Shown piece by piece: positions 22,460-48,054 of a stretch of DNA of 64,000 nucleotides (positions are counted from its first letter, which is position 1; each line of letters begins with the position of its first letter). Location: NCBI GenBank assembly GCA_029948255.1, contig JALIZF010001914.1, positions 744,001-808,000 on the forward strand, read 5' to 3'. The notes beneath the pieces were generated by a model. The model was not told the origin of the DNA, made no database searches, and worked only from the letters and a program-made list of their open reading frames with translations. The translations under genes and the position numbers were made by a program. The DNA comes from Telmatactis stephensoni. Taxonomy: Eukaryota; Cnidaria; Anthozoa; Actiniaria; Isophelliidae.

Positions 22460-22467
22460 AGTAGTAT

Positions 22468-22872
22468 ATGTACCACTTCAGACCATGCATTCCATACAGA
22501 TGGAGAGATAAGACAGAGACTCAGGCACAGTACCGTCTCATAAGGGATGGAAATGGGCCCCACCCACCTAGTTCATGCGGACTCTCACAGGAGCAAGAGC
22601 TCCTGCTATCGATGTTAGTCAAACGCACTATGTGTGTCGTTGAGAGTCGGGAAACGACTGGCGAAGGTTATTTTTGTCAGGAGAAGGAATGTCACAGGAA
22701 ACTCGCTGAAAAAGCAGGATGGGAAAAGTTGCCAGCTGGGCAATGTTGTTATTGTAAAGGAGAATTTTGGCAGTGTTTGTGTTATTATAGAATGTGGAAC
22801 GAAGACACGCATCCCGCGCGTTGGCTCGAAAGTCAAACAACGTCAGACGTGAAAAGTAAAAAAGGCACGTGA
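22468..22872 (+). CDS. unknown 134-aa Cys-rich ORF at the extreme terminus (left copy)
   Basis: ATG lies 8 bp from the element end and the frame is open to 22872. The product has Cys pairs (FCQEKEC, then QCCYCKGEFWQCLC), as in a small zinc-binding protein. The same frame is intact in the right arm. A 150-aa ORF on the opposite strand (22628-23080) overlaps it, and I cannot say which is real. Alternatively this is an exon whose continuation is unresolved. No homologue recognised. Confidence 0.35.
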   Translation: MYHFRPCIPYRWRDKTETQAQYRLIRDGNGPHPPSSCGLSQEQELLLSMLVKRTMCVVESRETTGEGYFCQEKECHRKLAEKAGWEKLPAGQCCYCKGEFWQCLCYYRMWNEDTHPARWLESQTTSDVKSKKGT

Positions 22873-23080
22873 AAGACAGGAGCGGTTGAAAAGCGATGGC
22901 TTTCTTTGTGACGGTGATCTGGTGTTGGAGTATATGATCATAAGATCGAAAGGACTGATCAAGGGGAGGAGAGAGGAGACCCTGGCCATGGAAGACTTTT
23001 GCAGGATTTTCAAAGTCTAGTATCTGTTTATCAAGGCACTTGGAACTAGCCTCTTCCAAATTTGGTTTAAACACGAACAT
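22628..23080 (-). CDS. unknown 150-aa ORF (left copy)
   Basis: An open ATG-started frame on the strand of the spliced gene, beginning about 105 bp after that gene's stop codon. The first half is hydrophilic (FKPNLEEASSKCLDKQ, FHGQGLLSPPLDQSF). The second half is Leu/Phe-rich and antisense to the terminal Cys-rich ORF. It could be a separate small gene or a shadow. No family recognised. Confidence 0.35.
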   Translation of the reverse strand: MFVFKPNLEEASSKCLDKQILDFENPAKVFHGQGLLSPPLDQSFRSYDHILQHQITVTKKAIAFQPLLSFTCLFYFSRLTLFDFRANARDACLRSTFYNNTNTAKILLYNNNIAQLATFPILLFQRVSCDIPSPDKNNLRQSFPDSQRHT

Positions 23081-23184
23081 TTTGTATAGTTCTCTTAAAG
23101 AAGCAATGCTGTTTTACAAATATATCAAAATAGGATAATTTGCTAGCTTTTGCAGCAGCGCTCGTGTCTCTGTTAATCGGTTCG

Positions 23185-24135
23185 TTATTGTAGAAAATAT
23201 CTATGGGTTTTGAATTGAGGATAATCGAGAGTAGATAGGAAACGTTCTAAATTGTCATCACGGCTCACAGTATTTGGAGTACACACAACGTAAGCTAGAC
23301 TAAAGTTTGGGTGTTTTCTAAGGAATGTGAAAATGCAGTTGTGAAAAATACGGCCTAGAGGGAGTGGCGATTTGGTAATTATAAAGTCGCCTCTACAGTA
23401 GAAATAGTAATTACCAGTTACATTGGTAAGGTTGAGTGTATGAAAAATAATTGGTTCGCAGTGTGGAATAAAACTGAAGGTCAACATTTTCCGTTTTTGG
23501 TGACATTTCAAACAGAATAAGGTCTGATAACTGATTTCATCGCGAAAATTATCGTTTCTGTATTGACAGGCCGGCTTTAAGCAAAGCAGGTGAAATCTAG
23601 AGAAGAAACGAATTTCTTAAAAAAAGGAAATCGCTCGAGAGTCAGTCTTCTAAGATGAATTTACACAAACTACAGTTTCTCGATATGTGACGGTTGAGAC
23701 AATTAATTGATTTATCTACACACTTTGCATAAGGTCATCTTTTTTGTCGTCTACTGATAAGACCTTACCATCGCACTCACTGGTAGGGATCAGATTGAAA
23801 GACATTCATTTGAATGTCGTTGTACCACTGAATCAAAAATCTAGCAGTTTTGTCGGCTGATTTATGTGTATAGTTTTGTAGCCAATGCTTTCTAAAAAAA
23901 CATGGTTTAGCTACTTAGAAACTACTTCCCTCAAAATAAGAATATATGATAGAATAAGCACATTCTTCAGAAGCAAATGGGGTTAAACTGCATATAAAGT
24001 AAACAGACGACTTAGAAACTGGCTAGGTGTGTTTGAGTAAAGAAACAAATAAGACTTACGCAGGCCTATAGCTAGGGCTAGTAGCAGAGGCGGCTTCACA
24101 GACGTCTTCTTTGTCAGATTCTGGCCATGGATCGC
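23185..24135 (-). CDS. spliced Cys-containing gene of unknown function, three exons (left copy)
   Basis: Exons 24060-24135, 23781-23891 and 23185-23596 (minus strand) join in one frame. Borders have strong consensus (CTCGCAG and TCTCTAG acceptors, GTAAGT and GTGAGT donors) and the split codons close correctly (GC/A and CA/A). The last exon ends in TAA. About 197 codons are visible: an acidic start (DPWPESDKEDVCE), an AKHWLQNYTHKSADKTARF helix-like stretch, then Cys/His residues (FHLLCLKPAC, LFCLKCHQKRK, IPHCEP) suggesting metal binding. The 5' exon is not resolved and must end in phase 1. Introns are unexpected in a viral-type element, so this may be a captured host gene or an exapted one. 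I do not recognise the family. Confidence 0.65.
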
Positions 24136-24394
24136 CTGCGAGAAAAAACATATACATATATCAGAAAAAATATTTTTTGCTTTTTATTATTATTTTTTGA
24201 AGGCCGGAGTCAATGGCCGAAACGTCTACAATTAAAAGAAAAATCAGAGACAAAAATCTTTATAAACTTTGAATTTTATGGATCCTGATTGCAATTTCAA
24301 AATCTTTACTATTATTTTTTTATTTATTCATTTATTTTGACGCAAGACTTACTTATTTTCTTGTTCACCCAGAGAATCTGAGGATGCAGAAAAT

Positions 24395-24697
24395 ATGCTA
24401 GAAATGAAGGCAAAAGAAACAAGAATATCTTTAAAAGCGAGGGTGGGTCCAAGGCACAGTAAAAAACTTTGTCAATACTCATTGAAAAATCGAGTCATCG
24501 ACTACCCGTTCCAAAATGACTTTGAAAAACTACGACCAAAAGCAAAAGTAAACACATTAAAAAATTTTGTCGAGTGTGTTTATGCGACAAGGAACTCAAG
24601 AAACGATCAAACGATAATATTTGATACAAAACATGTGTTGGACCAAGAGCAACTTTCCCAGCCTGAGTCTAAAAATATTATGGATCAACATCGTTGA
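24395..24697 (+). CDS. unknown basic 100-aa ORF (left copy)
   Basis: ATG-started frame rich in Lys/Arg/Asn/Gln, antisense to the region just 5' of the spliced gene. Both arms keep it open. No family features; it may be a chance ORF. Confidence 0.2.
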   Translation: MLEMKAKETRISLKARVGPRHSKKLCQYSLKNRVIDYPFQNDFEKLRPKAKVNTLKNFVECVYATRNSRNDQTIIFDTKHVLDQEQLSQPESKNIMDQHR

Positions 24698-24849
24698 CAA
24701 AAACAGAGGCATCAATGATGTTTTTTTCAAACGGACTGGTTTGGTCTTGAAATGAAAATTGAAAAGAACACCTGAAAAAAGTGACTGACTGACAATAACA
24801 ATGATACAACCATGTCAAGGTCACCGCGTGAGCGAAACAGATTCGAAGA

Positions 24850-26720
24850 AATATCAGGAGTCGAATGAGTGTCCAAAAACGATTCCAAGGTTTTCTATAC
24901 GAAAAAAACAACAACAACAAACAAACAAACAAACCTGGTGACAAAACCGGAGTGCATTACCCTGTCGAGGAATCGTGTCTTTGTGTGGGTTTTCTGTCAA
25001 GGCATGCATGTTGTCACTGAGGCCTCGCGCGTCCTTGCGTGTGACCCCTTGCGCTAATGTTTGGACATCTTTAGCAGTGATTCGCAAAGCCAATACATGG
25101 CATTTTCTTGACCACGAAATTTATTGTACCTCCTCTCAATGAAAATAAAATGTATCCTGATCCTGATTTATTACTATGTAAAGCTAATTGCATGTGACAG
25201 AGGGGATGACAATGGCCGGCTAAACCACAATAGCTTACAAACCAAAAAATTACAATACTGGAAGAAATAATAAATAAATAAGTAAATAAATAAATAAGTA
25301 GATAAATAAGTCAATAAATAAATAGATAAATAGATTTGATAAATATTAGTAATACTAAAGTGATAGTTCTAAATAGATATTAAATATTGAACTTTCAATT
25401 TTGATTTCGGAAATTGTTTACATTTGCTGCTACTACATCATCTGATGGAAGGTCGTTCCCGTTTTGCAACAGCTCTATATCAGTTTTTGCACCTAAGCGA
25501 AAATAATATGTTGGTGTTTTTTTTTTTCTAGTTTTCGTTTCTGAGGAATTCACAAAATCACTGTTTCATTTTTATGGCACTTTAGCCATTTAAGCACTGA
25601 CTTGTATGAGTCACTATGAGTCTGTTTCTTTTCCTAATAGAAGAGAGGGAGGGCCATTGTAGGTCTTGGATCATTGCTGCCACACTTGCTTCTGTGGACT
25701 AGTTGTTCTTTACAAAACGCGCAGCTCGTCTCTGGACCATTTCCAGTTGATTTATACATTTCTGTGTGTATGGGTAGTAATTCCATCGTCGGTCATTTAT
25801 GAATGAGTTTCGAATTGGCTTCAGTTTGCAGTCCAAGATAAGCATCATCCTCTGTTGTAAAGTTTTCATTGATGACTTGGAAAAAAATCTCTGCTTTTAC
25901 CCCTATTTCATTCGGGATATGGAAAATAATAATTTCGCCTGTAGGGGGTGTGTTAACTCGTGTCCATTCCTCTTCCGCCACAAACTAAGGTGGCAGATCT
26001 AGTTGTCAAGCTAGCCATCAGGAGCTGAAAAAAGAGACGTTTTTCAAAGAAAGAGTGCCCAAAAGCAATTCCAGGGATTTCTACCAGAAGAAGAAGAAGA
26101 AGAAGAAGAAGAAGAAGAAAAATGAAACCTTGTGGCAGAAACAGGAATGCATTACTCTATCGAGAAATCGTGTGTATGTGTGGGTTTTCTGTGGGGCATG
26201 GTGTCAATGATGAAATTTATTGTACTTCCTCTCAGTGAAAATAAAGTGTGTAACTGGGTTTCGAATTGGCTTCAGATTGCAGTCCAATAAGCGTTTTCCT
26301 TTGTTGTTCGGTTTTCAGTGATGACTCAAAGGACCTCATTATCCTTTTATAGAGAAGGAAAAAACTCTGCTTTTTTCCTATTTTATTTGGGATATGAAAT
26401 AGCTGGTCTGGTCAGGGTGATTTCGTTCCTTCGAAACCCAGCGTCAAAATAAATAACAATTATTTCGCCTGTGAGGAGAGTGTTGAAGAAACAAAATCTT
26501 TATACACGTAGTCCATAGGCGACATCTAACGTGCGTCGACACCCAATCATTTGTCGGGGGAGGGGTGCGTAGGGAAACAAAAACCGTTGTTCAACAAGTG
26601 CGTAGCCTATACATCGCGTGCGTCTACACCCACAGACATGCCTTATGGAACGGGTATCTGTCTTAACTCGTGTCCATTCCTTTTCGGCCACAAACCAAGA
26701 TGGCGGATCTAGTCGGCCGA
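24850..26720. repeat. internal duplicated modules in the left arm
   Basis: Three blocks occur twice. GAAATTTATTGTACCTCCTC with a nearby CGTGTnTnTGTGTGGGTTTTC is near 24975-25135 and again near 26160-26245. TTTCGAATTGGCTTCAG is near 25807 and 26259. TTAACTCGTGTCCATTCC with CGGCCACAAACCAAGATGG is near 25952 and 26654. An ancestral module was duplicated and diverged before the arms arose. Confidence 0.7.
25264..25770 (-). pseudogene. 3' relic of a non-LTR retrotransposon nested in the left arm
   Basis: Read on minus, frames give QLEMVQRRAARFV, then MIQDLQWPSLSSIRKRNRL, then LPSDDVVAANVNNFKSKLK. This is the typical end of a CR1/jockey-like RT polyprotein, interrupted by stops and frameshifts and followed by an ATTT microsatellite. 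It was present in the element before the inverted duplication, because both arms carry it. Confidence 0.75.
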
Positions 26721-27296
26721 GCCGAGTATTTTGAGGGATTTTTCAAAGAAAATTCCTTTTGGATGAGAAAACATTTATCAGGCCTCGAACTAGGGTCAGT
26801 AGAGATTTCCTTATACGGTAATAGAAGGCTCGCGGGTAAAACATCATTCTTTTAAAACCCTACTCGAGATGAATCGGTGATAAACCGACCCTCTAGTGAG
26901 AATCCGAATAAACTGTTACTTAAAACGTGGCTCTATCCATCAGCAATGTGAAAAATAGTTCATGGATAATTTGAACGACATGGAATTGCATGACTTTCTG
27001 TCCAAAAGTGTCTCTCCCAGGCGGGCACTACCAGTTACCAATGAACACATAGCCCCACAAACAAAACACTTCGAATAGAAGCAGACCTAGATTAGAAGAT
27101 TAGCTTCTCGCTTGGGCTTTCCAGATTAGGAATGGAATTTGAGAGATGAGGGGCGGCCTGATGTGGAGGGAGATTGGTGATGTGTTATATGGGGGAAAGC
27201 AAAGATGATTTATGTTGGAGACTATTTATAAAGATTTGTTGTCCTTCATTATTACTTATCGATGACCATCGAGTCATACAGAGACCGACGATAAAG

Positions 27297-27518
27297 ATGA
27301 GTGACGTGGTAAAAAGGTGGACTTTTACTAAACCTGTTCCACACGAAATACTGTCTTCAGCGAGAGGAATGTATGGAGGAATATCACTTGTGAATCAAAA
27401 CTATTTGCGTACCTTGACAGGAGTGAAAAGGTTAGAAGAGCAAGTTCGTTTGATAAAAAAGGCTCAAGAGGAAAAAGAAGTCCCACGAGGCATTTGCATG
27501 AGACTGTGTGGAACTTGA
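27297..27518 (+). CDS. unknown 74-aa ORF with upstream TATA box (left copy)
   Basis: ATG at 27297 opens MSDVVKRWTFTKPVPHE and closes after a Lys/Glu-rich helix (VKRLEEQVRLIKKAQEEKE). TATAAA lies at 27237-27242, about 55 bp upstream. It may be the first segment of a longer frameshifted gene that continues into the 224-aa ORF at 27773. Function unknown. Confidence 0.45.
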   Translation: MSDVVKRWTFTKPVPHEILSSARGMYGGISLVNQNYLRTLTGVKRLEEQVRLIKKAQEEKEVPRGICMRLCGT

Positions 27519-27772
27519 TTTTATTACAGACCATGTTTTTCTATAAGATTCAACTGTGTGTGGGTATTTTTTAAAAGAATTTGGTGAACAAGGAGTCAGT
27601 CTAATTATTTGAGAGAATCTGACTAGCAAAGAAGAAGTGTTTTTGTGTGCTAACCAAGGGCTTATGACCTTTAATTTGTCCGTAATAGAAGTAAAGAACA
27701 AATTGTCAAGCTACAAAAAGTGTGTTACCTGTTTTGTGAAACCAGTGTGCCAATATATTCCGAAAGAAGAGT

Positions 27773-28447
27773 TTGCTGGGGAAGTTGTTGGAGTCACAAG
27801 CAGCACTTTATTTTGAAGCATCTGAGCTGGAAGAGTTGTTTTCTACCCTCGATAAAGAAAGCGTGTTAATTTTGTTGATTGTAAGACAAATGGGCCTTCC
27901 TATACAAGCTTTAGACGAGAAAGGAGAAGTTCTGGCCGAGACCCACATGTCCTATATTGGTTTTGGTAAGAGAATTGAGCCTCTATTGAATGAAGAAGAA
28001 CTAACAGAATATCATGAAAATAATGATTTGGTGCTTATGGGGGAAAGAGCTCAAAAGATAGCCGACTACTTGAAGAACGATAAGTGGTTTCCTTCCAACA
28101 CGCCAATAGATCGTGTTCGCTGGATTGTTTGTGAGATGGGTTTTTCTGTGAAGTTTGAAGACAAAGAAACTTCAGAAGTAGAACACTTTGTAATCCTTCC
28201 TAGCCGATGGGAGTATGAAAAGAGTTTTCAGCCAGAGCGATTGAAAGAATACAACAGCATGTTTGATGAAGCAGCTGTGGAAGTCGATAGATTGGGTAAG
28301 TTGGGCGAAGATTTTCCAGAAGAACTTTTCACCCGACGCTTTGAGATAACACAGTGTGAAGCTCAACGGATTGTTGACAAGTTGATTGAAGATGGATTTT
28401 CAGTGGATCTTGAAATGGCTCAGAGGTGTAAGGTCACAGTACGTTAA
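27773..28447 (+). CDS. unknown 224-aa acidic ORF, longest open frame in the arm (left copy)
   Basis: No in-frame ATG is present at the beginning. The frame opens after TGA at 27737 and the first candidate start is TTG, so the true 5' part is probably lost by frameshift; an adjacent frame upstream carries KKCVTCFVKPVCQYIPKEEF. The product is alpha-helical in look and acidic, with EASELEELFSTLDKES, LNEEELTEYHENNDL and RIVDKLIEDGF, a helix-turn-helix-like C-terminal rhythm. A stem GGGATAATTTTTATCCC follows the stop (28459-28475). No family recognised. Confidence 0.5.
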   Translation: MLGKLLESQAALYFEASELEELFSTLDKESVLILLIVRQMGLPIQALDEKGEVLAETHMSYIGFGKRIEPLLNEEELTEYHENNDLVLMGERAQKIADYLKNDKWFPSNTPIDRVRWIVCEMGFSVKFEDKETSEVEHFVILPSRWEYEKSFQPERLKEYNSMFDEAAVEVDRLGKLGEDFPEELFTRRFEITQCEAQRIVDKLIEDGFSVDLEMAQRCKVTVR

Positions 28448-28997
28448 AAAAGATCCATGGGATAATTTTTATCCCACGGGACATTTTTTCCTCGGGGATA
28501 ATAGACAACTTTAAGCGAGAGATCGAGAGAGAGACAAAAAGACCATTGTTGGAGATATTCTAAATTGTATCCAAGTGACTCATATGCCAACGACTTTTCA
28601 GTGTTAATTTTAGAATTGTAAATGTGACCAGTGCGCGTGAGTGAACGTTTAATAAAATCGACACCAAAACGAGTGGCGAATTGAAGAAACGTTTATTTCA
28701 GCTAGCTCTGGAGAAAATTCAAGAAGGGTGGTTAATTGAGAAAGATGGAAAGCTGGTATTTAGTTGATTATCCTTGAGCGACACCATCGCCGTTTTTCTT
28801 CGAATCAGCTACCAAACACCTAAGTGAAAAAGAAAGAGAAAAAGTGATGATTTCAGAGAAGATGCCCAAGATGAGAGGATTTTTGGGAAGGAATATAGGG
28901 GCGATCATCAGAGAAGAATGCTGAGTTTAGGATTTCAGAATGTGTTGATTGTACTTCCTCATGTAATGTCTTTGCAAGGGGGGTACTTATTTTTGTA
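28448..28997. other. decayed coding fragments in the left arm
   Basis: Short open pieces in changing frames: LKKRLFQLALEKIQEGW to a stop at 28767, and KHLSEKEREKVMISEKMPKM to a stop near 28924. They look like C-terminal remnants of one or two lost genes. AATAAA occurs at 28650. Confidence 0.4.
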
Positions 28998-29249
28998 TTG
29001 ATATACCAAACTGTGACAAGATTTGTACTTGCAGTTAAAATTTGTCAGTTATGTACGGAGTATGTAAAGTGTGAGCAGCAGTATGACACAAGGAAAAGAA
29101 AACGAACAATAGTAGCTAAAGTGTCTGTTTGTACGTTATCGTTAATGCGTGTAGGAAAATTGAGTGAAATTGTCATGGAAAATATTGGTGCAATAGATAT
29201 TGCTTTAGCTGTGAGAAACTGCAGTCTTTGTTTTAGCTGTGTGAAGTAA
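28998..29249 (+). CDS. small Cys-rich ORF whose stop overlaps AATAAA (left copy)
   Basis: 83 codons from a TTG; no ATG at the start. It has CxxC-type clusters at both ends (ICQLCTEYVKC, NCSLCFSCVK). TAA at 29247-29249 overlaps AATAAA at 29248-29253. This compact end is shared with two other ORFs in the arm. Function unknown. Confidence 0.45.
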   Translation: MIYQTVTRFVLAVKICQLCTEYVKCEQQYDTRKRKRTIVAKVSVCTLSLMRVGKLSEIVMENIGAIDIALAVRNCSLCFSCVK

Positions 29250-29466
29250 TAAAGGAATGCAAAGATTGGTCACTTAAAGGAATAGGTTTTTTTTTTTTTT
29301 TTTTTTTGTAAAATATTGAATAGATCGAAATCAGTCCTAGTAAAATAGAATTTGTAGCTGGATTTGTTTAGTAATGTTCCTAACTGAAGTTGTAGCTTAG
29401 CTTCCGAAACAAACGCTTTTAACAATTATATAATAGTGTGGTGATTCTGAGTGGGGGAGATTCATA

Positions 29467-29601
29467 ATGAGGGAATTTGGAGAGGAAGGGATGCGTCTTC
29501 AATTACGCTTTGGAAAGGAGAGTAGAATTTATTCTTCAACTCCGAATGATGGAGATGTTGATGATAATAATGCTGTATATATTTTAGTTTTGTTTGGATG
29601 A
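29467..29601 (+). CDS. small ORF of 44 codons
   Basis: ATG-started MREFGEEGMRLQLRFGKES followed by an Asp-rich stretch and a hydrophobic end, also present in the right arm. It could be a remnant or a chance ORF. Confidence 0.25.
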   Translation: MREFGEEGMRLQLRFGKESRIYSSTPNDGDVDDNNAVYILVLFG

Positions 29602-29785
29602 TTTGACACGTTGGAGCATGTCTCGTTTTTCGTGAGGAATGATAATGATATGAATTGTTCCATGCTATTAAAAAAATCGTTTATGGGCTAAAATTTTGTT
29701 CCATGGGATAAAAAAATGAAGTGCAAGGTTGACCTTGATTTGTCTATAAAAAGTGCCTCTGAAGCAGTAAAGCGACCCTTTCAAA

Positions 29786-30418
29786 ATGTGCTTGCAATGT
29801 GCAGTATGTGATTCTACGAAGGTTTGGACGAAATGTGGCGCCGGTGAATTTCAAAAACCGGACGTTAGGCTGCAATATGATGACCCCTAAAAAGAACGTG
29901 GCTGCTTTGTAGGAAGCTTTCATGAAGATGTCGCGTTTTAAAGAATATACGCTGACTGAACATCCTTTGGATTCTGCGATGGAGCGGCCAAAATGCGAAC
30001 GCATGTGGTACATGGCCTTAAAAAAGTGTGAATCTGACGGTCCCAACCATAACAAGCGCCCCTTTTTTCCTGTGATGCCAAAAGACCCAAAAAGCAGTGT
30101 AAGAGGATTTATATCAACGAAAGCTCTGATTATGGCTTCAGTGGTACCCGACAGAACGAAAGAGGATGGTGGAAAAAGTACGGCGACTTGTCAATCCGTG
30201 AAGTGTTCCAGGAGGTGTGATTAAGAAAGCAGAAGAAACAACAAGAGAGCAAGGATGTCGATAGAGAAGAAGAGATGGTTGAAGAAGAGGAGGAAGAAGA
30301 GGAAGAAATGGTTCCTGTTAACAAATAAGAGAAAGGTGAAGGTGATCAAGAGAAAGCCAAAGCCTCTTTTGGTTTAGGCCCTCAATCCCAGATGATTGAT
30401 GAGGAGGAGGACGAATAA
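29786..30418 (+). pseudogene. broken gene: Cys-rich N-terminus, WW-containing middle, acidic tail (left copy)
   Basis: TATAAA at 29745-29750 precedes ATG 29786. The first frame has CLQCAVC and WTKCG, then meets a stop. A second frame (29922 onward) has KMSRFKEYTLTEHP and a basic middle. After another frame change comes NERGWWKKYGDLSIREVFQE, and the last frame is a Lys/Gln then Glu run (EEEMVEEEEEEEEEMV) that passes an in-frame TAA (30326-30328) before MIDEEEDE. The final TAA (30416-30418) overlaps AATAAA. At least three breaks are shared by both arms. The layout suggests a nucleic-acid or packaging-associated viral protein, but I recognise no family. Confidence 0.55.
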
Positions 30419-30689
30419 AGGGCAGACTTTTTAAGATCGAGTCATAAGAGAAATATAAAATGTGATAAATAAAGATATTTGATAAAATTGTCTTGGTGTG
30501 TTTGATGTGTTTGAACTGAGTATAACCCGTGAGATGGAGGGAATCAAACAGTTGGTTTTAGACAGCAGGGAAAAGAGGAAAAGTGGTATTATTATTTGCT
30601 CATTTCACCGAGGCAGTTCCAAGATTTGAGCTTTTGTTTCATGACAAAGACTGAACTAGCAAAAAGACGGTAGAGGCAAAAGTTTTGAG

Positions 30690-31117
30690 TGAACAGGAAA
30701 AGCTTGGGTTACATGGATTGATCACTCAATTTGGCGTTATTAGAGACGCTTTATTTTGAAAAGTATCGGCATCGTACGTTTGGAGCAGTAACACCTACGA
30801 TCATTAGCAATGAGGGACTGGAAGAGACGGATATTGAACGGTGGGTTGAACGGTGGGTTGAACAGTACATGGATTATTGGGATGAGATGATTGTAGAAAC
30901 ACAGGAATTTGAAATGCTGAGAAACTTGTACAGGGTGCTGTTATTTTCTTGTTTCAAAATGGAGATTGCCTGCATGATGAGTCCGAATCTACCTGTGGAA
31001 GAAGAAGTATTGCAACGCATGTGTTATTTAGTATACAAATGGAGTACTACATCAGGTGCAGGAGGTGCAAGCTGGTGCAGCAACGGCCGGTGCATGGGGA
31101 GTCATAACGGCGACTAG
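30690..31117 (+). pseudogene. unknown helical ORF, frameshifted at its start (left copy)
   Basis: A leading segment (VLSEQEKLGLHGLITQFG) runs into a stop. The next frame (30731-31117) reads LLETLYFEKYRHRTFGAV, then repeated ERWVERWVEQYMDYWDEM, then an amphipathic stretch to YLVYKWSTTSG. No ATG start. No homologue recognised. Confidence 0.4.
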
Positions 31118-31238
31118 TGAGTCACGCGCCGGCGATCCGCTTGCAGTACAGACGTCTTAGAGACCGGGTGCTTCGGTTTTTCGCACAAATCAGTTGAACC
31201 TTCAATCATTACTACTGTTGGATATAAGATCAAACAAA

Positions 31239-31715
31239 ATGGACGAAGATGAAATATGCTGTTGTTTTGAGGGGGTTGATGTGGAACAAAGTCGAAAGAC
31301 GGCTGAAAAATGGCGGAGAAAAGTCATGGGGTTGTTCCGCACCATGCAAACAACAATGTTCGAGATGCATAAAAAATTCACAGAAACTGGCAGATATGTG
31401 TGGATACGTGTGGGACGAGGAAGAAGATGCAAAATGCTGCTGCGGTCAATCAAGAGACTTTGAGCAAGCAATGAAACAATTTTATATAGACGAGTGGGAA
31501 AAAGTGGAGATACATACGTGTCTTGTAGCCGAGCCCTATCCTTGCAGCTGCCTCGAGTGCCGCGATACAGTAAAAAATCTAATGAAAATATATACGAAAG
31601 ACTGACAGATTTTATCTTGGCATACAAAATGGAACAAATGAAATTGTCCAAGAGTGATAACCCCCAATACGATGATTACTGGACAACGTTGTTTGAACAG
31701 CTAAAACATTCTTGA
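31239..31715 (+). pseudogene. Cys-rich gene broken into three frames (left copy)
   Basis: ATG 31239 opens MDEDEICCCFEGVDVEQSRK. The next frame carries CKQQCSRCIKN, KCCCGQSRDFEQAM and YPCSCLECRDTV. The third ends with YERLTDFILAYKMEQ and a stop at 31715. Overlapping open frames with a smooth hand-over look like one zinc-binding protein with two frameshifts. Function unknown. Confidence 0.5.
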
Positions 31716-31778
31716 ATTACTTGAGCACCGGCGCTACCATGAAACAAAAGAAATTAATTCTGTAAATACTCGACGGTT

Positions 31779-31784
31779 TATAAA
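31779..31784 (+). promoter_or_regulatory. TATA box of the 199-aa ORF (left copy)
   Basis: TATAAA 29 bp before an ATG at 31813 and about 42 bp before the 199-aa open frame. It is one of three TATA-ORF pairs in the arm (others at 27237 and 29745). The spacing fits a core promoter rather than chance AT-rich sequence. Confidence 0.5.
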
Positions 31785-31825
31785 AGGTACCTCACAACCC
31801 AAAACCTATCAAATGATCTTTAGCA

Positions 31826-33413: not shown

Positions 33414-33450
33414 GAAGAAAAAGCCCGAGGAGTCGTTAGCAGCAATTGCT

Positions 33451-35200: not shown

Positions 35201-35222
35201 TGAGAGCTAGACCGCGGAAGTC

Positions 35223-38050: not shown

Positions 38051-38650
38051 TTATTCATCCATCATAATCGATTTGAATATCAGATAAGGTTTGGAGTCCC
38101 ATGCTTTACCGTTCAGTACATCACACATCATGTCTACAAAGTCTACAATGATTTCTTCTTTGTAATTGCACGTATGCCTCAAGTCTTTCCAGAAGAAGTA
38201 CACTGAACGAGTAGACATCCTTGGTAGACTGTTGATGAATGCATCCCATGCTGTTGTCATGGGGATGCCAGCGAGCTTGGTAAACTGCTCACAAAGGTCG
38301 TGGAACATGTTAAGATCGATCTCAGTTTTTACACTGTCGTAGAAACTCTCGAAGATTTCCCCTCCACTTCGTAAGCAACATTCGTGATCTTTTTGGCTGG
38401 GCCAGTTTTCCACACATCCTTCACATTGAAATCTTTCATGCACTTTTCTGATACAAAGTTCTCCGTATAGGAATGAAAGTACCAAACGAACTTTAACGCG
38501 TCCGACTGCTTCTACTTCGTCAGTCACGGTCATGATCACCTTGTTTCCTTCGAGAGGGGTGTTTTGCATCTTCACACTTGATCCTTTCGTGAACAATCCA
38601 AAGGGGTCCTTCGTAATAATCGCGTAACCAACAGTAGACGAGTAGTACAA
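38051..38650 (-). CDS. 199-aa ORF with CxGC-PSQ-H-CC motif (right copy)
   Basis: Mirror copy of 31826-32425, identical in translation, with the same TATA box and the same overlap of stop and AATAAA. Confidence 0.6.
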   Translation of the reverse strand: MYYSSTVGYAIITKDPFGLFTKGSSVKMQNTPLEGNKVIMTVTDEVEAVGRVKVRLVLSFLYGELCIRKVHERFQCEGCVENWPSQKDHECCLRSGGEIFESFYDSVKTEIDLNMFHDLCEQFTKLAGIPMTTAWDAFINSLPRMSTRSVYFFWKDLRHTCNYKEEIIVDFVDMMCDVLNGKAWDSKPYLIFKSIMMDE

Positions 38651-38760
38651 TGCTAAAGATCATTTGATAGGTTTTGGGTTGTGAGGTACCTTTTATAAAC
38701 CGTCGAGTATTTACAGAATTAATTTCTTTTGTTTCATGGTAGCGCCGGTGCTCAAGTAAT

Positions 38761-39237
38761 TCAAGAATGTTTTAGCTGTTCAAACAACGTTGTCCAGTAA
38801 TCATCGTATTGGGGGTTATCACTCTTGGACAATTTCATTTGTTCCATTTTGTATGCCAAGATAAAATCTGTCAGTCTTTCGTATATATTTTCATTAGATT
38901 TTTTACTGTATCGCGGCACTCGAGGCAGCTGCAAGGATAGGGCTCGGCTACAAGACACGTATGTATCTCCACTTTTTCCCACTCGTCTATATAAAATTGT
39001 TTCATTGCTTGCTCAAAGTCTCTTGATTGACCGCAGCAGCATTTTGCATCTTCTTCCTCGTCCCACACGTATCCACACATATCTGCCAGTTTCTGTGAAT
39101 TTTTTATGCATCTCGAACATTGTTGTTTGCATGGTGCGGAACAACCCCATGACTTTTCTCCGCCATTTTTCAGCCGTCTTTCGACTTTGTTCCACATCAA
39201 CCCCCTCAAAACAACAGCATATTTCATCTTCGTCCAT
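38761..39237 (-). pseudogene. Cys-rich gene broken into three frames (right copy)
   Basis: Mirror copy of 31239-31715 with the same two frame breaks. Confidence 0.5.
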
Positions 39238-39358
39238 TTTGTTTGATCTTATATCCAACAGTAGTAATGATTGAAGGTTCAACTGATTTGTGCGAAAAAC
39301 CGAAGCACCCGGTCTCTAAGACGTCTGTACTGCAAGCGGATCGCCGGCGCGTGACTCA

Positions 39359-39786
39359 CTAGTCGCCGTTATGACTCCCCATGCACCGGCCGTTGCTGCA
39401 CCAGCTTGCACCTCCTGCACCTGATGTAGTACTCCATTTGTATACTAAATAACACATGCGTTGCAATACTTCTTCTTCCACAGGTAGATTCGGACTCATC
39501 ATGCAGGCAATCTCCATTTTGAAACAAGAAAATAACAGCACCCTGTACAAGTTTCTCAGCATTTCAAATTCCTGTGTTTCTACAATCATCTCATCCCAAT
39601 AATCCTATGTACTGTTCAACCCACCGTTCAACCCACCGTTCAATATCCGTCTCTTCCAGTCCCTCATTGCTAATGATCGTAGGTGTTACTGCTCCAAACG
39701 TACGATGCCGATACTTTTCAAAATAAAGCGTCTCTAATAACGCCAAATTGAGTGATCAATCCATGTAACCCAAGCTTTTCCTGTTC
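39359..39786 (-). pseudogene. unknown helical ORF, additionally frameshifted (right copy)
   Basis: Mirror of 30690-31117, but one extra base near 39607 breaks the frame in the middle, so only 76 codons remain open (39359-39589). This is an arm-specific mutation that postdates the duplication. Confidence 0.45.
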
Positions 39787-40059
39787 ACTCAAAACTTTTG
39801 CCTCTACCGTCTTTTTGCTAGTTCAGTCTTTGTCATGAAACAAAAGCTCAAATCTTGGAACTGCCTCGGTGAAATGAGCAAATAATAATACCACTTTTCC
39901 TCTTTTCCCTGCTGTCTAAAACCAACTGTTTGATTCCCTCCATCTCACGGGTTATACTCAGTTCAAACACATCAAACACATCCAAGACAATTTTATCAAA
40001 TATCTTTATTTATCACATTTTATATTTCTCTTATGACTCGATCTTAAAAAGTCTGCCCT

Positions 40060-40692
40060 TTATTCGTCCTCCTCCTCATCAATCATCTGGGATTGAGGGC
40101 CTAAACCAAAAGAGGCTTTGGCTTTCTCTTGATCACCTTCACCTTTCTCTTATTTGTTAACAGGAACCATTTCTTCCTCTTCTTCCTCCTCTTCTTCAAC
40201 CATCTCTTCTTCTCTATCGACATCCTTGCTCTCTTGTTGTTTCTTCTGCTTTCTTAATCACACCTCCTGGAACACTTCACGGATTGACAAGTCGCCGTAC
40301 TTTTTCCACCATCCTCTTTCGTTCTGTCGGGTACCACTGAAGCCATAATCAGAGCTTTCGTTGATATAAATCCTCTTACACTGCTTTTTGGGTCTTTTGG
40401 CATCACAGGAAAAAAGGGGGGCTTGTTATGGTTGGGACCGTCAGATTCACACTTTTTTAAGGCCATGTACCACATGCGTTCGCATTTTGGCCGCTCCATC
40501 GCAGAATCCGAAGGATGTTCAGTCAGCGTATATTCTTTAAAACGCGACATCTTCATGAAAGCTTCCTACAAAGCAGCCACGTTCTTTTTAGGGGTCATCA
40601 TATTGCAGCCTAACTTCCGGTTTTTGAAATTCACCGGCGCCACATTTCGTCCAAACCTTCGTAGAATCACATACTGCACATTGCAAGCACAT
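40060..40692 (-). pseudogene. broken acidic-tailed gene (right copy)
   Basis: Mirror copy of 29786-30418. It carries the same stop and frame breaks plus a few substitutions (Leu to Ser after EHP, Arg to Pro in the PFFPV region). Confidence 0.55.
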
Positions 40693-41224
40693 TTTGAAAG
40701 GGTCGCTTTACTGCTTCAGAGTCACTTTTTATAGACAAATCAAGGTCAACCTTGCACTTCATTTTTTTATCCCATGGAACAAAATTTTAGCCCATAAACG
40801 ATTTTTTTAATAGCATGGAACAATTCATATCATTATCATTCCTCACGAAAAACGAGACATGCTCCAACGTGTCAAATCATCCAAACAAAACTAAAATATA
40901 TACAGCATTATTATCATCAACATCTCCATCATTCGGAGTTGAAGAATAAATTCTACTCTCCTTTCCAAAGCGTAATTGAAGACGCATCCCTTCCTCTCCA
41001 AATTCCCTCATTATGAACCTCCCCCACTCAGAATCACCACACTATTATATAATTGTTAAAAGCGTTTGTTTCGGAAGCTAAGCTACAACTTCAGTTAGGA
41101 ACATTACTAAACAAATCCAGCTACAAATTCTATTTTACTAGGACTGATTTCGATCTATTCAATATTTTACAAACAAAACAAAAAAAAACTATTCCTTTAA
41201 GTGACCAATCTTTGCATTCCTTTA

Positions 41225-41476
41225 TTACTTCACACAGCTAAAACAAAGACTGCAGTTTCTCACAGCTAAAGCAATATCTATTGCACCAATATTTTCCATG
41301 ACAATTTCACTCAATTTTCCTACACGCATTAACGATAACGTACAAACAGACACTTTAGCTACTATTGTTCGTTTTCTTTTCCTTGTGTCATACTGCTGCT
41401 CACACTTTACATACTCCGTACATAACTGACAAATTTTAACTGCAAGTACAAATCTTGTCACAGTTTGGTATATCAA
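41225..41476 (-). CDS. small Cys-rich ORF whose stop overlaps AATAAA (right copy)
   Basis: Mirror copy of 28998-29249 with the same translation and polyadenylation overlap. Confidence 0.45.
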   Translation of the reverse strand: MIYQTVTRFVLAVKICQLCTEYVKCEQQYDTRKRKRTIVAKVSVCTLSLMRVGKLSEIVMENIGAIDIALAVRNCSLCFSCVK

Positions 41477-42026
41477 TACAAAAATAAGTACCCCCCTTGC
41501 AAAGACATTACACGAGGAAGTACAATCAACACATTCTGAAATCCTAAACTCAGCATTCTTCTCTGATGATCGCCCCTATATTCCTTCCCAAAAATCCTCT
41601 CATCTTGGGCATCTTCTCTGAAATCATCACTTTTTCTCTTTCTTTTTCACTTAGGTGTTTGGTAGCTGATTCGAAGAAAAACGGCGATGGTGTCGCTCAA
41701 GGATAATCAACTAAATACCAGCTTTCCATCTTTCTCAATTAACCACCCTTCTTGAATTTTCTCCAGAGCTAGCTGAAATAAACGTTTCTTCAATTCGCCA
41801 CTCGTTTTGGTGTCGATTTTATTAAACGTTCACTCACGCGCACTGGTCACATTTACAATTCTAAAATTAACACTGAAAAGTCGTTGGCATATGAGTCACT
41901 TGGATACAATTTAGAATATCTCCAACAATGGTCTTTTTGTCTCTCTCTCGATCTCTCGCTTAAAGTTGTCTATTATCCCCGAGGAAAAAATGTCCCGTGG
42001 GATAAAAATTATCCCATGGATCTTTT

Positions 42027-42701
42027 TTAACGTACTGTGACCTTACACCTCTGAGCCATTTCAAGATCCACTGAAAATCCATCTTCAATCAACTTGTCAA
42101 CAATCCGTTGAGCTTCACACTGTGTTATCTCAAAGCGTCGGGTGAAAAGTTCTTCTGGAAAATCTTCGCCCAACTTACCCAATCTATCGACTTCCACAGC
42201 TGCTTCATCAAACATGCTGTTGTATTCTTTCAATCGCTCTGGCTGAAAACTCTTTTCATACTCCCATCGGCTAGGAAGGATTACAAAGTGTTCTACTTCT
42301 GAAGTTTCTTTGTCTTCAAACTTCACAGAAAAACCCATCTCACAAACAATCCAGCGAACACGATCTATTGGCGTGTTGGAAGGAAACCACTTATCGTTCT
42401 TCAAGTAGTCGGCTATCTTTTGAGCTCTTTCCCCCATAAGCACCAAATCATTATTTTCATGATATTCTGTTAGTTCTTCTTCATTCAATAGAGGCTCAAT
42501 TCTCTTACCAAAACCAATATAGGACATGTGGGTCTCGGCCAGAACTTCTCCTTTCTCGTCTAAAGCTTGTATAGGAAGGCCCATTTGTCTTACAATCAAC
42601 AAAATTAACACGCTTTCTTTATCGAGGGTAGAAAACAACTCTTCCAGCTCAGATGCTTCAAAATAAAGTGCTGCTTGTGACTCCAACAACTTCCCCAGCA
42701 A
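42027..42701 (-). CDS. unknown 224-aa acidic ORF (right copy)
   Basis: Mirror copy of 27773-28447, identical in translation, including the missing ATG. Confidence 0.5.
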   Translation of the reverse strand: MLGKLLESQAALYFEASELEELFSTLDKESVLILLIVRQMGLPIQALDEKGEVLAETHMSYIGFGKRIEPLLNEEELTEYHENNDLVLMGERAQKIADYLKNDKWFPSNTPIDRVRWIVCEMGFSVKFEDKETSEVEHFVILPSRWEYEKSFQPERLKEYNSMFDEAAVEVDRLGKLGEDFPEELFTRRFEITQCEAQRIVDKLIEDGFSVDLEMAQRCKVTVR

Positions 42702-42955
42702 ACTCTTCTTTCGGAATATATTGGCACACTGGTTTCACAAAACAGGTAACACACTTTTTGTAGCTTGACAATTTGTTCTTTACTTCTATTACGGACAAAT
42801 TAAAGGTCATAAGCCCTTGGTTAGCACACAAAAACACTTCTTCTTTGCTAGTCAGATTCTCTCAAATAATTAGACTGACTCCTTGTTCACCAAATTCTTT
42901 TAAAAAATACCCACACACAGTTGAATCTTATAGAAAAACATGGTCTGTAATAAAA

Positions 42956-43177
42956 TCAAGTTCCACACAGTCTCATGCAAATGCCTCGTGGGACTTCTTT
43001 TTCCTCTTGAGCCTTTTTTATCAAACGAACTTGCTCTTCTAACCTTTTCACTCCTGTCAAGGTACGCAAATAGTTTTGATTCACAAGTGATATTCCTCCA
43101 TACATTCCTCTCGCTGAAGACAGTATTTCGTGTGGAACAGGTTTAGTAAAAGTCCACCTTTTTACCACGTCACTCAT
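42956..43177 (-). CDS. unknown 74-aa ORF with upstream TATA box (right copy)
   Basis: Mirror copy of 27297-27518 with identical translation. Confidence 0.45.
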   Translation of the reverse strand: MSDVVKRWTFTKPVPHEILSSARGMYGGISLVNQNYLRTLTGVKRLEEQVRLIKKAQEEKEVPRGICMRLCGT

Positions 43178-43796
43178 CTTTATCGTCGGTCTCTGTATGA
43201 CTCGATGGTCATCGATAAGTAATAATGAAGGACAACAAATCTTTATAAATAGTCTCCAACATAAATCATCTTTGCTTTCCCCCATATAACACATCACCAA
43301 TCTCCCTCCACATCAGGCCGCCCCTCATCTCTCAAATTCCATTCCTAATCTGGAAAGCCCAAGCGAGAAGCTAATCTTCTAATCTAGGTCTGCTTCTATT
43401 CGAAGTGTTTTGTTTGTGGGGCTATGTGTTCATTGGTAACTGGTAGTGCCCGCCTGGGAGAGACACTTTTGGACAGAAAGTCATGCAATTCCATGTCGTT
43501 CAAATTATCCATGAACTATTTTTCACATTGCTGATGGATAGAGCCACGTTTTAAGTAACAGTTTATTCGGATTCTCACTAGAGGGTCGGTTTATCACCGA
43601 TTCATCTCGAGTAGGGTTTTAAAAGAATGATGTTTTACCCGCGAGCCTTCTATTACCGTATAAGGAAATCTCTACTGACCCTAGTTCGAGGCCTGATAAA
43701 TGTTTTCTCATCCAAAAGGAATTTTCTTTGAAAAATCCCTCAAAATACTCGGCTCGGCCGACTAGATCCGCCATCTTGGTTTGTGGCCGAAAAGGA

Positions 43797-45664
43797 ATGG
43801 ACACGAGTTAAGACAGATACCCGTTCCATAAGGCATGTCTGTGGGTGTAGACGCACGCGATGTATAGGCTACGCACTTGTTGAACAACGGTTTTTGTTTC
43901 CCTACGCACCCCTCCCCCGACAAATGATTGGGTGTCGACGCACGTTAGATGTCGCCTATGGACTACGTGTATAAAGATTTTGTTTCTTCAACACTCTCCT
44001 CACAGGCGAAATAATTGTTATTTATTTTGACGCTGGGTTTCGAAGGAACGAAATCACCCTGACCAGACCAGCTATTTCATATCCCAAATAAAATAGGAAA
44101 AAAGCAGAGTTTTTTCCTTCTCTATAAAAGGATAATGAGGTCCTTTGAGTCATCACTGAAAACCGAACAACAAAGGAAAACGCTTATTGGACTGCAATCT
44201 GAAGCCAATTCGAAACCCAGTTACACACTTTATTTTCACTGAGAGGAGGTACAATAAATTTCATCATTGACACCATGCCCCACAGAAAACCCACACATAC
44301 ACACGATTTCTCGATAGAGTAATGCATTCCTGTTTCTGCCACAAGGTTTCATTTTTTCTTCTTCTTCTTCTTCTTCTTCTTCTTCTTCTTCTTCTTCTTC
44401 TTCTTCTTCTTCTTCTTCTTCTTCTTCTTCTGGTAGAAATCCCTGGAATTGCTTTTGGGCACTCTTTCTTTGAAAAACGTCTCTTTTTTCAGCTCCTGAT
44501 GGCTAGCTTGACAACTAGATCTGCCACCTTAGTTTGTGGCGGAAGAGGAATGGACACGAGTTAACACACCCCCTACAGGCGAAATTATTATTTTCCATAT
44601 CCCGAATGAAATAGGGGTAAAAGCAGAGATTTTTTTCCAAGTCATCAATGAAAACTTTACAACAGAGGATGATGCTTATCTTGGACTGCAAACTGAAGCC
44701 AATTCGAAACTCATTCATAAATGACCGACGATGGAATTACTACCCATACACACAGAAATGTATAAATCAACTGGAAATGGTCCAGAGACGAGCTGCGCGT
44801 TTTGTAAAGAACAACTAGTCCACAGAAGCAAGTGTGGCAGCAATGATCCAAGACCTACAATGGCCCTCCCTCTCTTCTATTAGGAAAAGAAACAGACTCA
44901 TAGTGACTCATACAAGTCAGTGCTTAAATGGCTAAAGTGCCATAAAAATGAAACAGTGATTTTGTGAATTCCTCAGAAACGAAAACTAGAAAAAAAAAAC
45001 ACCAACATATTATTTTCGCTTAGGTGCAAAAACTGATATAGAGCTGTTGCAAAACGGGAACGACCTTCCATCAGATGATGTAGTAGCAGCAAATGTAAAC
45101 AATTTCAAATCAAAATTGAAAGTTCAATATTTAATATCTATTTAGAACTATCACTTTAGTATTACTAATATTTATCAAATCTATTTATCTATTTATTTAT
45201 TGACTTATTTATCTACTTATTTATTTATTTACTTATTTATTTATTATTTCTTCCAGTATTGTAATTTTTTGGTTTGTAAGCTATTGTGGTTTAGCCGGCC
45301 ATTGTCATCCCCTCTGTCACATGCAATTAGCTTTACATAGTAATAAATCAGGATCAGGATACATTTTATTTTCATTGAGAGGAGGTACAATAAATTTCGT
45401 GGTCAAGAAAATGCCATGTATTGGCTTTGCGAATCACTGCTAAAGATGTCCAAACATTAGCGCAAGGGGTCACACGCAAGGACGCGCGAGGCCTCAGTGA
45501 CAACATGCATGCCTTGACAGAAAACCCACACAAAGACACGATTCCTCGACAGGGTAATGCACTCCGGTTTTGTCACCAGGTTTGTTTGTTTGTTTGTTGT
45601 TGTTGTTTTTTTCGTATAGAAAACCTTGGAATCGTTTTTGGACACTCATTCGACTCCTGATATT
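43797..45664. repeat. internal duplicated modules in the right arm
   Basis: Mirror copy of 24850-26720. One module here contains the expanded CTT microsatellite (about 44357-44431). Confidence 0.7.
44745..45250 (+). pseudogene. 3' relic of a non-LTR retrotransposon nested in the right arm
   Basis: Mirror copy of 25264-25770 with the same in-frame stop after RAARFVKNN and the same ATTT tail (about 45178-45250). Confidence 0.75.
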
Positions 45665-45816
45665 TCTTCGAATCTGTTTCGCTCACGCGGTGACCTTGAC
45701 ATGGTTGTATCATTGTTATTGTCAGTCAGTCACTTTTTTCAGGTGTTCTTTTCAATTTTCATTTCAAGACCAAACCAGTCCGTTTGAAAAAAACATCATT
45801 GATGCCTCTGTTTTTG

Positions 45817-46119
45817 TCAACGATGTTGATCCATAATATTTTTAGACTCAGGCTGGGAAAGTTGCTCTTGGTCCAACACATGTTTTGTATCAAATATTAT
45901 CGTTTGATCGTTTCTTGAGTTCCTTGTCGCATAAACACACTCGACAAAATTTTTTAATGTGTTTACTTTTGCTTTTGGTCGTAGTTTTTCAAAGTCATTT
46001 TGGAACGGGTAGTCGATGACTCGATTTTTCAATGAGTATTGACAAAGTTTTTTACTGTGCCTTGGACCCACCCTCGCTTTTAAAGATATTCTTGTTTCTT
46101 TTGCCTTCATTTCTAGCAT
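45817..46119 (-). CDS. unknown basic 100-aa ORF (right copy)
   Basis: Mirror copy of 24395-24697, with the same reading frame and the same doubts. Confidence 0.2.
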   Translation of the reverse strand: MLEMKAKETRISLKARVGPRHSKKLCQYSLKNRVIDYPFQNDFEKLRPKAKVNTLKNFVECVYATRNSRNDQTIIFDTKHVLDQEQLSQPESKNIMDQHR

Positions 46120-46378
46120 ATTTTCTGCATCCTCAGATTCTCTGGGTGAACAAGAAAATAAGTAAGTCTTGCGTCAAAATAAATGAATAAATAAAAAAAT
46201 AATAGTAAAGATTTTGAAATTGCAATCAGGATCCATAAAATTCAAAGTTTATAAAGATTTTTGTCTCTGATTTTTCTTTTAATTGTAGACGTTTCGGCCA
46301 TTGACTCCGGCCTTCAAAAAATAATAATAAAAAGCAAAAAATATTTTTTCTGATATATGTATATGTTTTTTCTCGCAG

Positions 46379-47329
46379 GCGATCCATGGCCAGAATCTGA
46401 CAAAGAAGACGTCTGTGAAGCCGCCTCTGCTACTAGCCCTAGCTATAGGCCTGCGTAAGTCTTATTTGTTTCTTTACTCAAACACACCTAGCCAGTTTCT
46501 AAGTCGTCTGTTTACTTTATATGCAGTTTAACCCCATTTGCTTCTGAAGAATGTGCTTATTCTATCATATATTCTTATTTTGAGGGAAGTAGTTTCTAAG
46601 TAGCTAAACCATGTTTTTTTAGAAAGCATTGGCTACAAAACTATACACATAAATCAGCCGACAAAACTGCTAGATTTTTGATTCAGTGGTACAACGACAT
46701 TCAAATGAATGTCTTTCAATCTGATCCCTACCAGTGAGTGCGATGGTAAGGTCTTATCAGTAGACGACAAAAAAGATGACCTTATGCAAAGTGTGTAGAT
46801 AAATCAATTAATTGTCTCAACCGTCACATATCGAGAAACTGTAGTTTGTGTAAATTCATCTTAGAAGACTGACTCTCGAGCGATTTCCTTTTTTTAAGAA
46901 ATTCGTTTCTTCTCTAGATTTCACCTGCTTTGCTTAAAGCCGGCCTGTCAATACAGAAACGATAATTTTCGCGATGAAATCAGTTATCAGACCTTATTCT
47001 GTTTGAAATGTCACCAAAAACGGAAAATGTTGACCTTCAGTTTTATTCCACACTGCGAACCAATTATTTTTCATACACTCAACCTTACCAATGTAACTGG
47101 TAATTACTATTTCTACTGTAGAGGCGACTTTATAATTACCAAATCGCCACTCCCTCTAGGCCGTATTTTTCACAACTGCATTTTCACATTCCTTAGAAAA
47201 CACCCAAACTTTAGTCTAGCTTACGTTGTGTGTACTCCAAATACTGTGAGCCGTGATGACAATTTAGAACGTTTCCTATCTACTCTCGATTATCCTCAAT
47301 TCAAAACCCATAGATATTTTCTACAATAA
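46379..47329 (+). CDS. spliced Cys-containing gene of unknown function, three exons (right copy)
   Basis: Exons 46379-46454, 46623-46733 and 46918-47329. Splice sites, phases and translation are the same as in the left copy at 23185-24135, with no disrupting change seen in either. A candidate upstream exon ends at about 46159 (donor GTAAGT, one base left over) but cannot be confirmed by eye. Confidence 0.65.
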
Positions 47330-47433
47330 CGAACCGATTAACAGAGACACGAGCGCTGCTGCAAAAGCTAGCAAATTATCCTATTTTGATATATTTGTAA
47401 AACAGCATTGCTTCTTTAAGAGAACTATACAAA

Positions 47434-47886
47434 ATGTTCGTGTTTAAACCAAATTTGGAAGAGGCTAGTTCCAAGTGCCTTGATAAACAGATACTAGACT
47501 TTGAAAATCCTGCAAAAGTCTTCCATGGCCAGGGTCTCCTCTCTCCTCCCCTTGATCAGTCCTTTCGATCTTATGATCATATACTCCAACACCAGATCAC
47601 CGTCACAAAGAAAGCCATCGCTTTTCAACCGCTCCTGTCTTTCACGTGCCTTTTTTACTTTTCACGTCTGACGTTGTTTGACTTTCGAGCCAACGCGCGG
47701 GATGCGTGTCTTCGTTCCACATTCTATAATAACACAAACACTGCCAAAATTCTCCTTTACAATAACAACATTGCCCAGCTGGCAACTTTTCCCATCCTGC
47801 TTTTTCAGCGAGTTTCCTGTGACATTCCTTCTCCTGACAAAAATAACCTTCGCCAGTCGTTTCCCGACTCTCAACGACACACATAG
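47434..47886 (+). CDS. unknown 150-aa ORF (right copy)
   Basis: Mirror copy of 22628-23080 with identical translation, downstream of the right-arm copy of the spliced gene (46379-47329). Confidence 0.35.
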   Translation: MFVFKPNLEEASSKCLDKQILDFENPAKVFHGQGLLSPPLDQSFRSYDHILQHQITVTKKAIAFQPLLSFTCLFYFSRLTLFDFRANARDACLRSTFYNNTNTAKILLYNNNIAQLATFPILLFQRVSCDIPSPDKNNLRQSFPDSQRHT

Positions 47887-48046
47887 TGCGTTTGACTAAC
47901 ATCGATAGCAGGAGCTCTTGCTCCTGTGAGAGTCCGCATGAACTAGGTGGGTGGGGCCCATTTCCATCCCTTATGAGACGGTACTGTGCCTGAGTCTCTG
48001 TCTTATCTCTCCATCTGTATGGAATGCATGGTCTGAAGTGGTACAT
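47642..48046 (-). CDS. unknown 134-aa Cys-rich ORF at the extreme terminus (right copy)
   Basis: Mirror copy of 22468-22872 with the same translation. It starts 8 bp inside the right end of the element and is read away from the rabphilin stop codon, on the same strand as rabphilin. Confidence 0.35.
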   Translation of the reverse strand: MYHFRPCIPYRWRDKTETQAQYRLIRDGNGPHPPSSCGLSQEQELLLSMLVKRTMCVVESRETTGEGYFCQEKECHRKLAEKAGWEKLPAGQCCYCKGEFWQCLCYYRMWNEDTHPARWLESQTTSDVKSKKGT

Positions 48047-48054
48047 ATACTACT

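Follow-up and report, generated by a model that had tools for sequence, protein, structure and literature searches.

A stretch of 64,000 nucleotides from the sea anemone Telmatactis stephensoni (assembly GCA_029948255.1, contig JALIZF010001914.1, here C29, positions 744001-808000) contains an almost perfect palindrome of 25.6 kb at 22460-48054. This whole stretch is called the window, and positions given without a contig are in its numbering. On balance, the palindrome is best explained as a non-autonomous, Foldback-like Maverick (Polinton) whose terminal inverted repeats (TIRs) grew until they made up the whole element. This reading is favoured because the three loci found in the assembly all have the palindromic layout, and no single-arm copy (monomer) was recognised.

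Structure of the palindrome

In a BLAST comparison of the window with itself, inverted matches of 99.7-99.9% identity span the entire palindrome. Together with an arm-to-arm alignment, this defines a left arm of 12,756 bp (22460-35215, plus strand) and a right arm of 12,794 bp (35261-48054, minus strand, ending in ACTACT), confirming the description in the initial annotation of two mirror arms of about 12.8 kb with small differences. Outside the centre, 10 substitutions and 6 indels separate the arms; the largest indel is 43 nt of an AAG microsatellite (longer allele at 44356-44431 on the minus strand, shorter left-arm counterpart at 26086-26119). The substitutions are clustered. A stretch of 760 bp holds 7 of the 10, which is equalled by 1 in 100,000 random draws, and when the two substitutions in a T run are left out, 599 bp still hold 5 of 8 (equalled by 125 in 100,000). 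With the copy on contig C344 (see below) as outgroup, 8 of the 10 can be polarised, giving 6 changes in the left arm and 2 in the right.

The aligned centre (35216-35260, 45 bp) consists of GGAAGTC, 9 nt, a 9-bp stem (GCCGCCGGC), a CAA loop, the returning stem, 1 nt and GACTTCC. It forms an imperfect, asymmetric hairpin, in which the stem is rich in GC, the loop has 3 nt and one side has a bulge of 8 nt. The spacer of 31 bp given in the initial annotation is correct if the 7-bp GGAAGTC/GACTTCC is counted into the arms, but the centre as aligned is longer and holds the stem and loop.

Both termini read AGTAGT inward (AGTAGT on the left, ACTACT on the right), and a TTTCT target duplication lies directly outside them, at 22455-22459 and 48055-48059. 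The chance of a matching flanking 5-mer, calculated from the 5-mer composition of the flanks themselves, is 0.0012-0.0014. The mirror symmetry stops at the termini, and only 9 of 60 mirrored positions outside agree. The end motif, the flanking TTTCT, the unrelated outside sequence and the idea of two identical ends as a substrate for an integrase had all been put forward in the initial annotation, and all of them stand. The terminal stretch of about 152 bp that starts with AGTAGT (22460-22611, plus strand) is 93-96% identical to three ends on contig C138.

Further copies and concerted change of the arms

The assembly that was searched contains 483.5 Mb in 1,782 contigs. A search with the initial 201 bases of the palindrome, in which 10 of 10 candidates were scored, gave terminus matches at 10 places: two on C29, three on C344, one on C282, three on C138 (93-96%) and one on C296 (80%). 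Those on C138 and C296 are from diverged relatives. Searches with 2 kb of the outer and of the inner arm, where 40 of 160 and 40 of 835 candidates were scored and copies may therefore be missed, matched C29, C344 and C282 over long stretches at 92-100%, while the other matches were relatives at 70-76%, short multi-copy repeats and the C138 termini. A genome search for monomer copies had been suggested as a check on the palindrome; among the 10 termini and the scored arm-end candidates, no single-arm copy of the subfamily was recognised.

The copies on C344 and C282 begin at the same base as the C29 element, in different surroundings. The C344 copy (211242-239251) has CTTTT duplicated on both sides, and its centre is the same as that of C29, including the asymmetry and the bulge. 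It is inserted within an ATPase-like frame (Pox_A32, 1.7e-5), which we would take for that of another Maverick, and the right flank, translated separately, is open in the phase predicted from a hand count. An alignment of the left arms of C29 and C344 shows 241 differences in 12,313 bases (1.96%) and 63 gap openings, and a transposon insertion of 1,619 bp with a 9-bp duplication is found in the left arm of C344 only. On C282, the layout is 22460-23588, 17 bp, and then 33910-33261 inverted, with the two pieces 99.6 and 99.2% identical to their C29 counterparts; the simplest reading of this would be a derivative of the palindrome that has lost its centre.

These copies bear on two sceptical explanations. 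An assembly artefact, in which one arm was used twice, had been named in the initial annotation as a possible undoing of the structure. The arms are near-identical, and 7 of 10 substitutions fall into one patch, as a haplotype bubble could give. However, the 1,619-bp insertion is present in just one C344 arm, the C29 arms have their own substitutions and indels, and C29 and C344 have different flanks and different duplications, making an artefact very unlikely. A palindrome of the host chromosome that merely holds Maverick debris would fit the repeats and the dead integrase found in the arms, but the mirror ends exactly at Maverick termini with a 5-bp duplication beyond them, and the same first base is shared by the C344 and C282 copies, which lie in different surroundings. 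We give this explanation hardly any credence.

The four arms of C29 and C344 can be compared with each other. In this alignment 12,051 positions are invariant, and 459 gapped or missing positions were set aside. At 234 of the 246 variable sites the pattern is mirrored, with C29 differing from C344 and the two arms of each copy being alike; the remaining 12 are private (9 in C29, 3 in C344). Variants grouping arms across copies were not seen at any of the 246 sites. Larger changes are mirrored as well: a multi-copy repeat of about 106 bp (24199-24304, plus strand, mirrored at about 46210-46315) is inserted at the identical base in both C29 arms, and is found in neither C344 arm.

The right end of C344 shows how such changes can pass between arms. 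Past the arm end at 238630 there are 437 bp that mirror the copy's own left flank, then 186 bp of terminal sequence reaching to 239251, and directly beside this the target duplication. The mirrored flank pair (210805-211241 and 239067-238631) is identical except within 100 bp, where 21 positions differ; this may be a patch of later conversion. As the 437 bp are left flank specific to this site, they were copied across the centre within the chromosome.

The same observation supports the idea that the palindromes formed independently in place. Here, ordinary insertions with the same native hairpin would later have suffered a break, with repair copying by fold-back at the hairpin and resolution through the other TIR. 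Cross-arm copying in the chromosome did happen at C344, the variable sites are mirrored almost throughout, and a human study (PMC3907307) documents inverted duplications that arise by fold-back at short inverted sequences. Since arm-shared variants are absent, this explanation stays viable; independent formation at the same hairpin fits the mirrored pattern equally well, and is just less economical. For it to hold, two loci must have the same centre and a third must be laid out as a palindrome too, with no monomer of the subfamily recognised in the searches above, and the right end of C29 is clean. In addition, the terminal piece of C344 agrees with the arm over 186 bp, more than the roughly 152 bp of the TIR on C138, and the two ends may therefore have been alike over more than an ordinary TIR beforehand. 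Independent formation is the chief rival of the favoured reading, but we do not consider it probable.

Several points weigh against a mobile palindrome and should be taken together. The lack of arm-shared variants at all 246 sites leaves the four arms without this kind of support for an ancestral palindrome, and the mirrored pattern and the shared centre are equally expected if monomers with a native hairpin folded back separately. The statement that there are no monomers comes from the terminus search and from arm-end searches in which part of the candidates were scored (40/160 and 40/835). A central loop of 3 nt is expected to be unstable, which is odd for an element that persists. The palindrome, with its centre and borders, is known from the assembled sequence. 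C282 retains one end only, and no target duplication can be read there. Finally, the target duplications are 5 bp long, against 6 bp in the vertebrate Mavericks of a published survey (PMC8097293).

Coding content and relatives

For the gene content, 148 frame pieces from one arm were compared with Pfam at E<=0.05. Matches were obtained to 18 families, with one piece each, and the best was to the integrase core, rve; the others were weak (0.001 or worse) and gave no consistent picture. The rve match (9.2e-7, 29.5 bits) is below the curated cut-off of 32.6. It belongs to an integrase remnant at 32590-33390 (plus strand) that is interrupted by frame changes and a stop, with an identical mirror at 37086-37886. 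In the five alignments listed, to HTLV-2 (human T-cell leukaemia virus type 2) and other integrases, one position with Glu in the partner carries Lys here; we take this Glu to be the catalytic Glu of integrases. C29 and C344 have some of this damage to the integrase in common, the Lys among it. Pfam matches to polB, ATPase or capsid genes were not found in the 148 pieces at this threshold, and as Pfam covers capsid genes poorly, the capsid negative is weak.

Two longer frames are worth describing. An open frame of 235 amino acids (27740-28444, plus strand, mirrored at 42030-42734) has no family match, and no homologue in the protein database among 1,141 candidates, but it has a homologue on contig C154 with 71% amino acid identity. 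Another, of 202 amino acids (31817-32422, plus strand, mirrored at 38054-38659), has 6 database homologues at 47-78% identity by BLASTP, which form a family of small helical proteins without names or domains. The 202-amino-acid protein is itself predicted to be all-helical, and its fold had no match at E<=0.001 (best E 0.62). In arms simulated with an order-2 Markov model, frames of at least 235 and at least 202 amino acids occurred in 3 and 15 of 200 cases, so that frame length alone is modest evidence and the homologues are better evidence. Between C29 and C344, the changes in three frames add up to 5 synonymous and 15 non-synonymous ones, with ratios of 0.55-0.87, while the ratio for the 235-amino-acid frame against C154 is 0.27. 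Selection seems to be relaxed in the palindrome lineage, as far as such small numbers tell. A substitution count for a fourth frame (at 30722) was dropped, as its frames were misaligned and the synonymous divergence (dS) was 0.37. A comparison of 8 proteins with PHROGs gave a single match, to the DNA polymerase of C138, and searches of viral contigs with the integrase and the open frames, and of genome contigs with the open frames, confirmed no relative. The 15-base end pattern occurs in at least 120 stretches of viral contigs, which was taken as chance and is uninformative.

Relatives do exist within the anemone genome itself. On C138, an element of 46.5 kb (129387-175859) has AGTAGT/ACTACT ends with TTCCT on both sides. 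It shares the terminus of the palindrome at 96%, in a TIR of about 152 bp beyond which its ends diverge, and encodes both an integrase (Pfam, 4.8e-15) and polB (2.9e-15). Frames of a Bel-Pao type retrotransposon are also present inside it. Beyond the terminus, the arm resembles the right end of this element in patches over 23031-27120 (72-81%) and its left end at 22653-23006 (74%), and the inner tip of the arm (35044-35178, plus strand) is 76% identical to C138:158140-158270, where an overlapping frame without a Pfam match may be read as ATPase-like. Other patches, over 27528-35028, resemble sequences on C154 and C300 at 74-76%, with one stretch of 99 bp at 88-89%. Because of this patchwise likeness to the C138 ends and to C154/C300, the arm is a mosaic. 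The C154 (199027-208437) and C300 (474601-484028) sequences are 99%-identical copies with ACTACT at one side, and on the other side they stop at the same base, without a motif or a matching duplication.

The end motif, the integrase remnant and the polB-carrying relative bear out the assignment in the initial annotation to a Maverick/Polinton-type element. Its proposal of an integrated dimer of the complete element did not hold. In this explanation, a virus genome that had formed a head-to-head dimer during replication, comparable to defective adenovirus genomes, was integrated once, and gene conversion has since kept its arms from diverging. The central hairpin, the target duplication and the two identical ends are all in keeping with it. 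On the other hand, the arms are truncated and lack Pfam matches to polB, ATPase and capsid genes, while the relative with the same TIR has polB and integrase. Both arms have the integrase damage and an old internal tandem duplication in common, and related copies lie at two further loci, one of which (C344) shares part of this damage and shows chromosomal copying between arms. A dimer integrated once is therefore improbable.

A second Maverick with AGTAGT/ACTACT ends is found at C1428:6508-21682, with a 6-bp duplication (TAGGTC) and TIRs of 4,008 and 4,009 bp that are 99.9% identical and each contain an integrase match. It is located between arrays of a tandem repeat of about 152 bp. On C928, an inverted pair of integrase matches (8998-9555, plus, and 19959-20516, minus) about 10 kb apart may belong to a further long-TIR Maverick or to a palindrome. 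In the whole genome, 152 integrase matches were obtained with 130 of 579 candidates scored, and many of these are in open frames.

Among the remaining features of the arms, the old tandem duplication lies at 24863-26713 (plus strand), with 73-92% identity between corresponding pieces, and is present in each arm. A repeat of about 300 bp (34499-34798, plus strand) has at least 35 further places at 91-95% among the matches listed. The three 5-bp duplications (TTTCT on C29, CTTTT on C344 and TTCCT on C138) are all pyrimidine runs; a target preference for such runs is possible from these three cases, though the left flank of the C282 copy has none. Right of the palindrome, about 35 bp from the right TTTCT, is the stop (48094-48096) of a minus-strand frame. 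The gene on this strand has two C2-domain matches, one above and one just under the Pfam cut-off. The initial annotation called it rabphilin, and it may be read as rabphilin-like, but Pfam shows C2 alone. Also outside the palindrome are a reverse transcriptase frame (RVT_1, 11886-12758, 6e-13) that overlaps a predicted tRNA-Ser (11842-11914), and a gene of the CD36 family in a single open frame of 536 amino acids (6858-8465, 1.2e-132).

Possible origin, known systems and meaning

For the Foldback-like Maverick that we favour, three steps can be proposed. In the first, suggested by the centre, a truncated Maverick end would have folded back on a short hairpin and been copied outward, giving two arms of 12.8 kb and a product that carries the same AGTAGT terminus at either side. 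With two good ends, this could then have been inserted by the integrase of other Mavericks. The target duplications are observed, and the integrase would have been supplied in trans. The element's own integrase was apparently already damaged in the common ancestor of the two copies, and the partly shared damage points to a spread in trans. In the third step, seen as a pattern in the four arms, both arms of each copy change together. One route, seen once at C344, is copying of arm onto arm in the chromosome, overshooting into the flank. A second might be pairing of the arms of displaced single strands during protein-primed replication.

A bolder version, which we think rather doubtful, is that the palindrome is a replicon of its own. 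It would be a linear molecule with a protein-primed origin at both ends that is copied by the enzymes of a helper Maverick; the displaced strands would snap into hairpins with paired arms, mismatches would be repaired, and a symmetric genome would be re-integrated. The proposed snap-back of displaced strands, here as in the favoured model, rests on the biology of adenoviruses. Defective adenovirus genomes in which the left end is duplicated are of the protein-primed type and have the same end on both sides; the palindrome differs from these in that it is integrated, its genes are dead and it occurs in several genomic copies.

Compared with vertebrate Mavericks as described in the survey (PMC8097293; (AGT)2//(ACT)2 as the commonest end motif, duplications of 6 bp, TIRs of 46-1,447 bp and intact elements of 12.7-24.6 kb), the palindrome shares the end motif, the rve remnant and a polB-bearing relative with the same terminus. 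The retroviral-type integrase of Mavericks is present as a broken remnant only, the duplication is 5 bp at C29, C344 and C138, the TIR is the whole 12.8-kb arm, and Pfam matches to polB, ATPase or capsid genes are lacking in the arms. Foldback elements such as Galileo (PMC3573991) have non-autonomous copies that are almost entirely inverted repeats, as is the C29 palindrome, and the length of the Galileo repeat changes by recruiting internal sequence, as here. However, Galileo belongs to the P superfamily, and its TIRs measure about 1.26 kb at most and are flanked by sequences of 7 bp, while here the element is a Maverick with repeats ten times longer, and rve integrase is the only such enzyme found in the arm and on C138. 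Human fold-back inverted duplications likewise have a short inverted sequence at the turn and one side copied, but their spacers are 766-70,466 bp and they arise via dicentric chromosomes (PMC3907307), as opposed to a 3-nt loop in a mobile element at several loci. Ginger elements (PMC2836005) have TGTNR ends and a 4-bp duplication, unlike the AGTAGT ends and 5-bp duplication of the palindrome. In line with the initial annotation, which knew of no described family with this architecture, a Maverick of palindromic form was not found in the literature searched, which left most subscription papers outside its coverage.

Within one genome there is a series of TIRs from about 152 bp (C138) over 4.0 kb (C1428) to the whole element (C29 and C344), while the published vertebrate Maverick TIRs reach at most about 1.4 kb (PMC8097293). 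Since flank DNA came along, C344 records how a repeat can be copied. The element offers a case in which concerted change between the arms of a mobile palindrome, and the existence of long palindromes with next to no spacer, can be tested. If the replicon version were true, this would be a DNA element that proofreads one half against the other in every cycle. The finding also bears on virus-like transposons, which may decay into parasites of their relatives.

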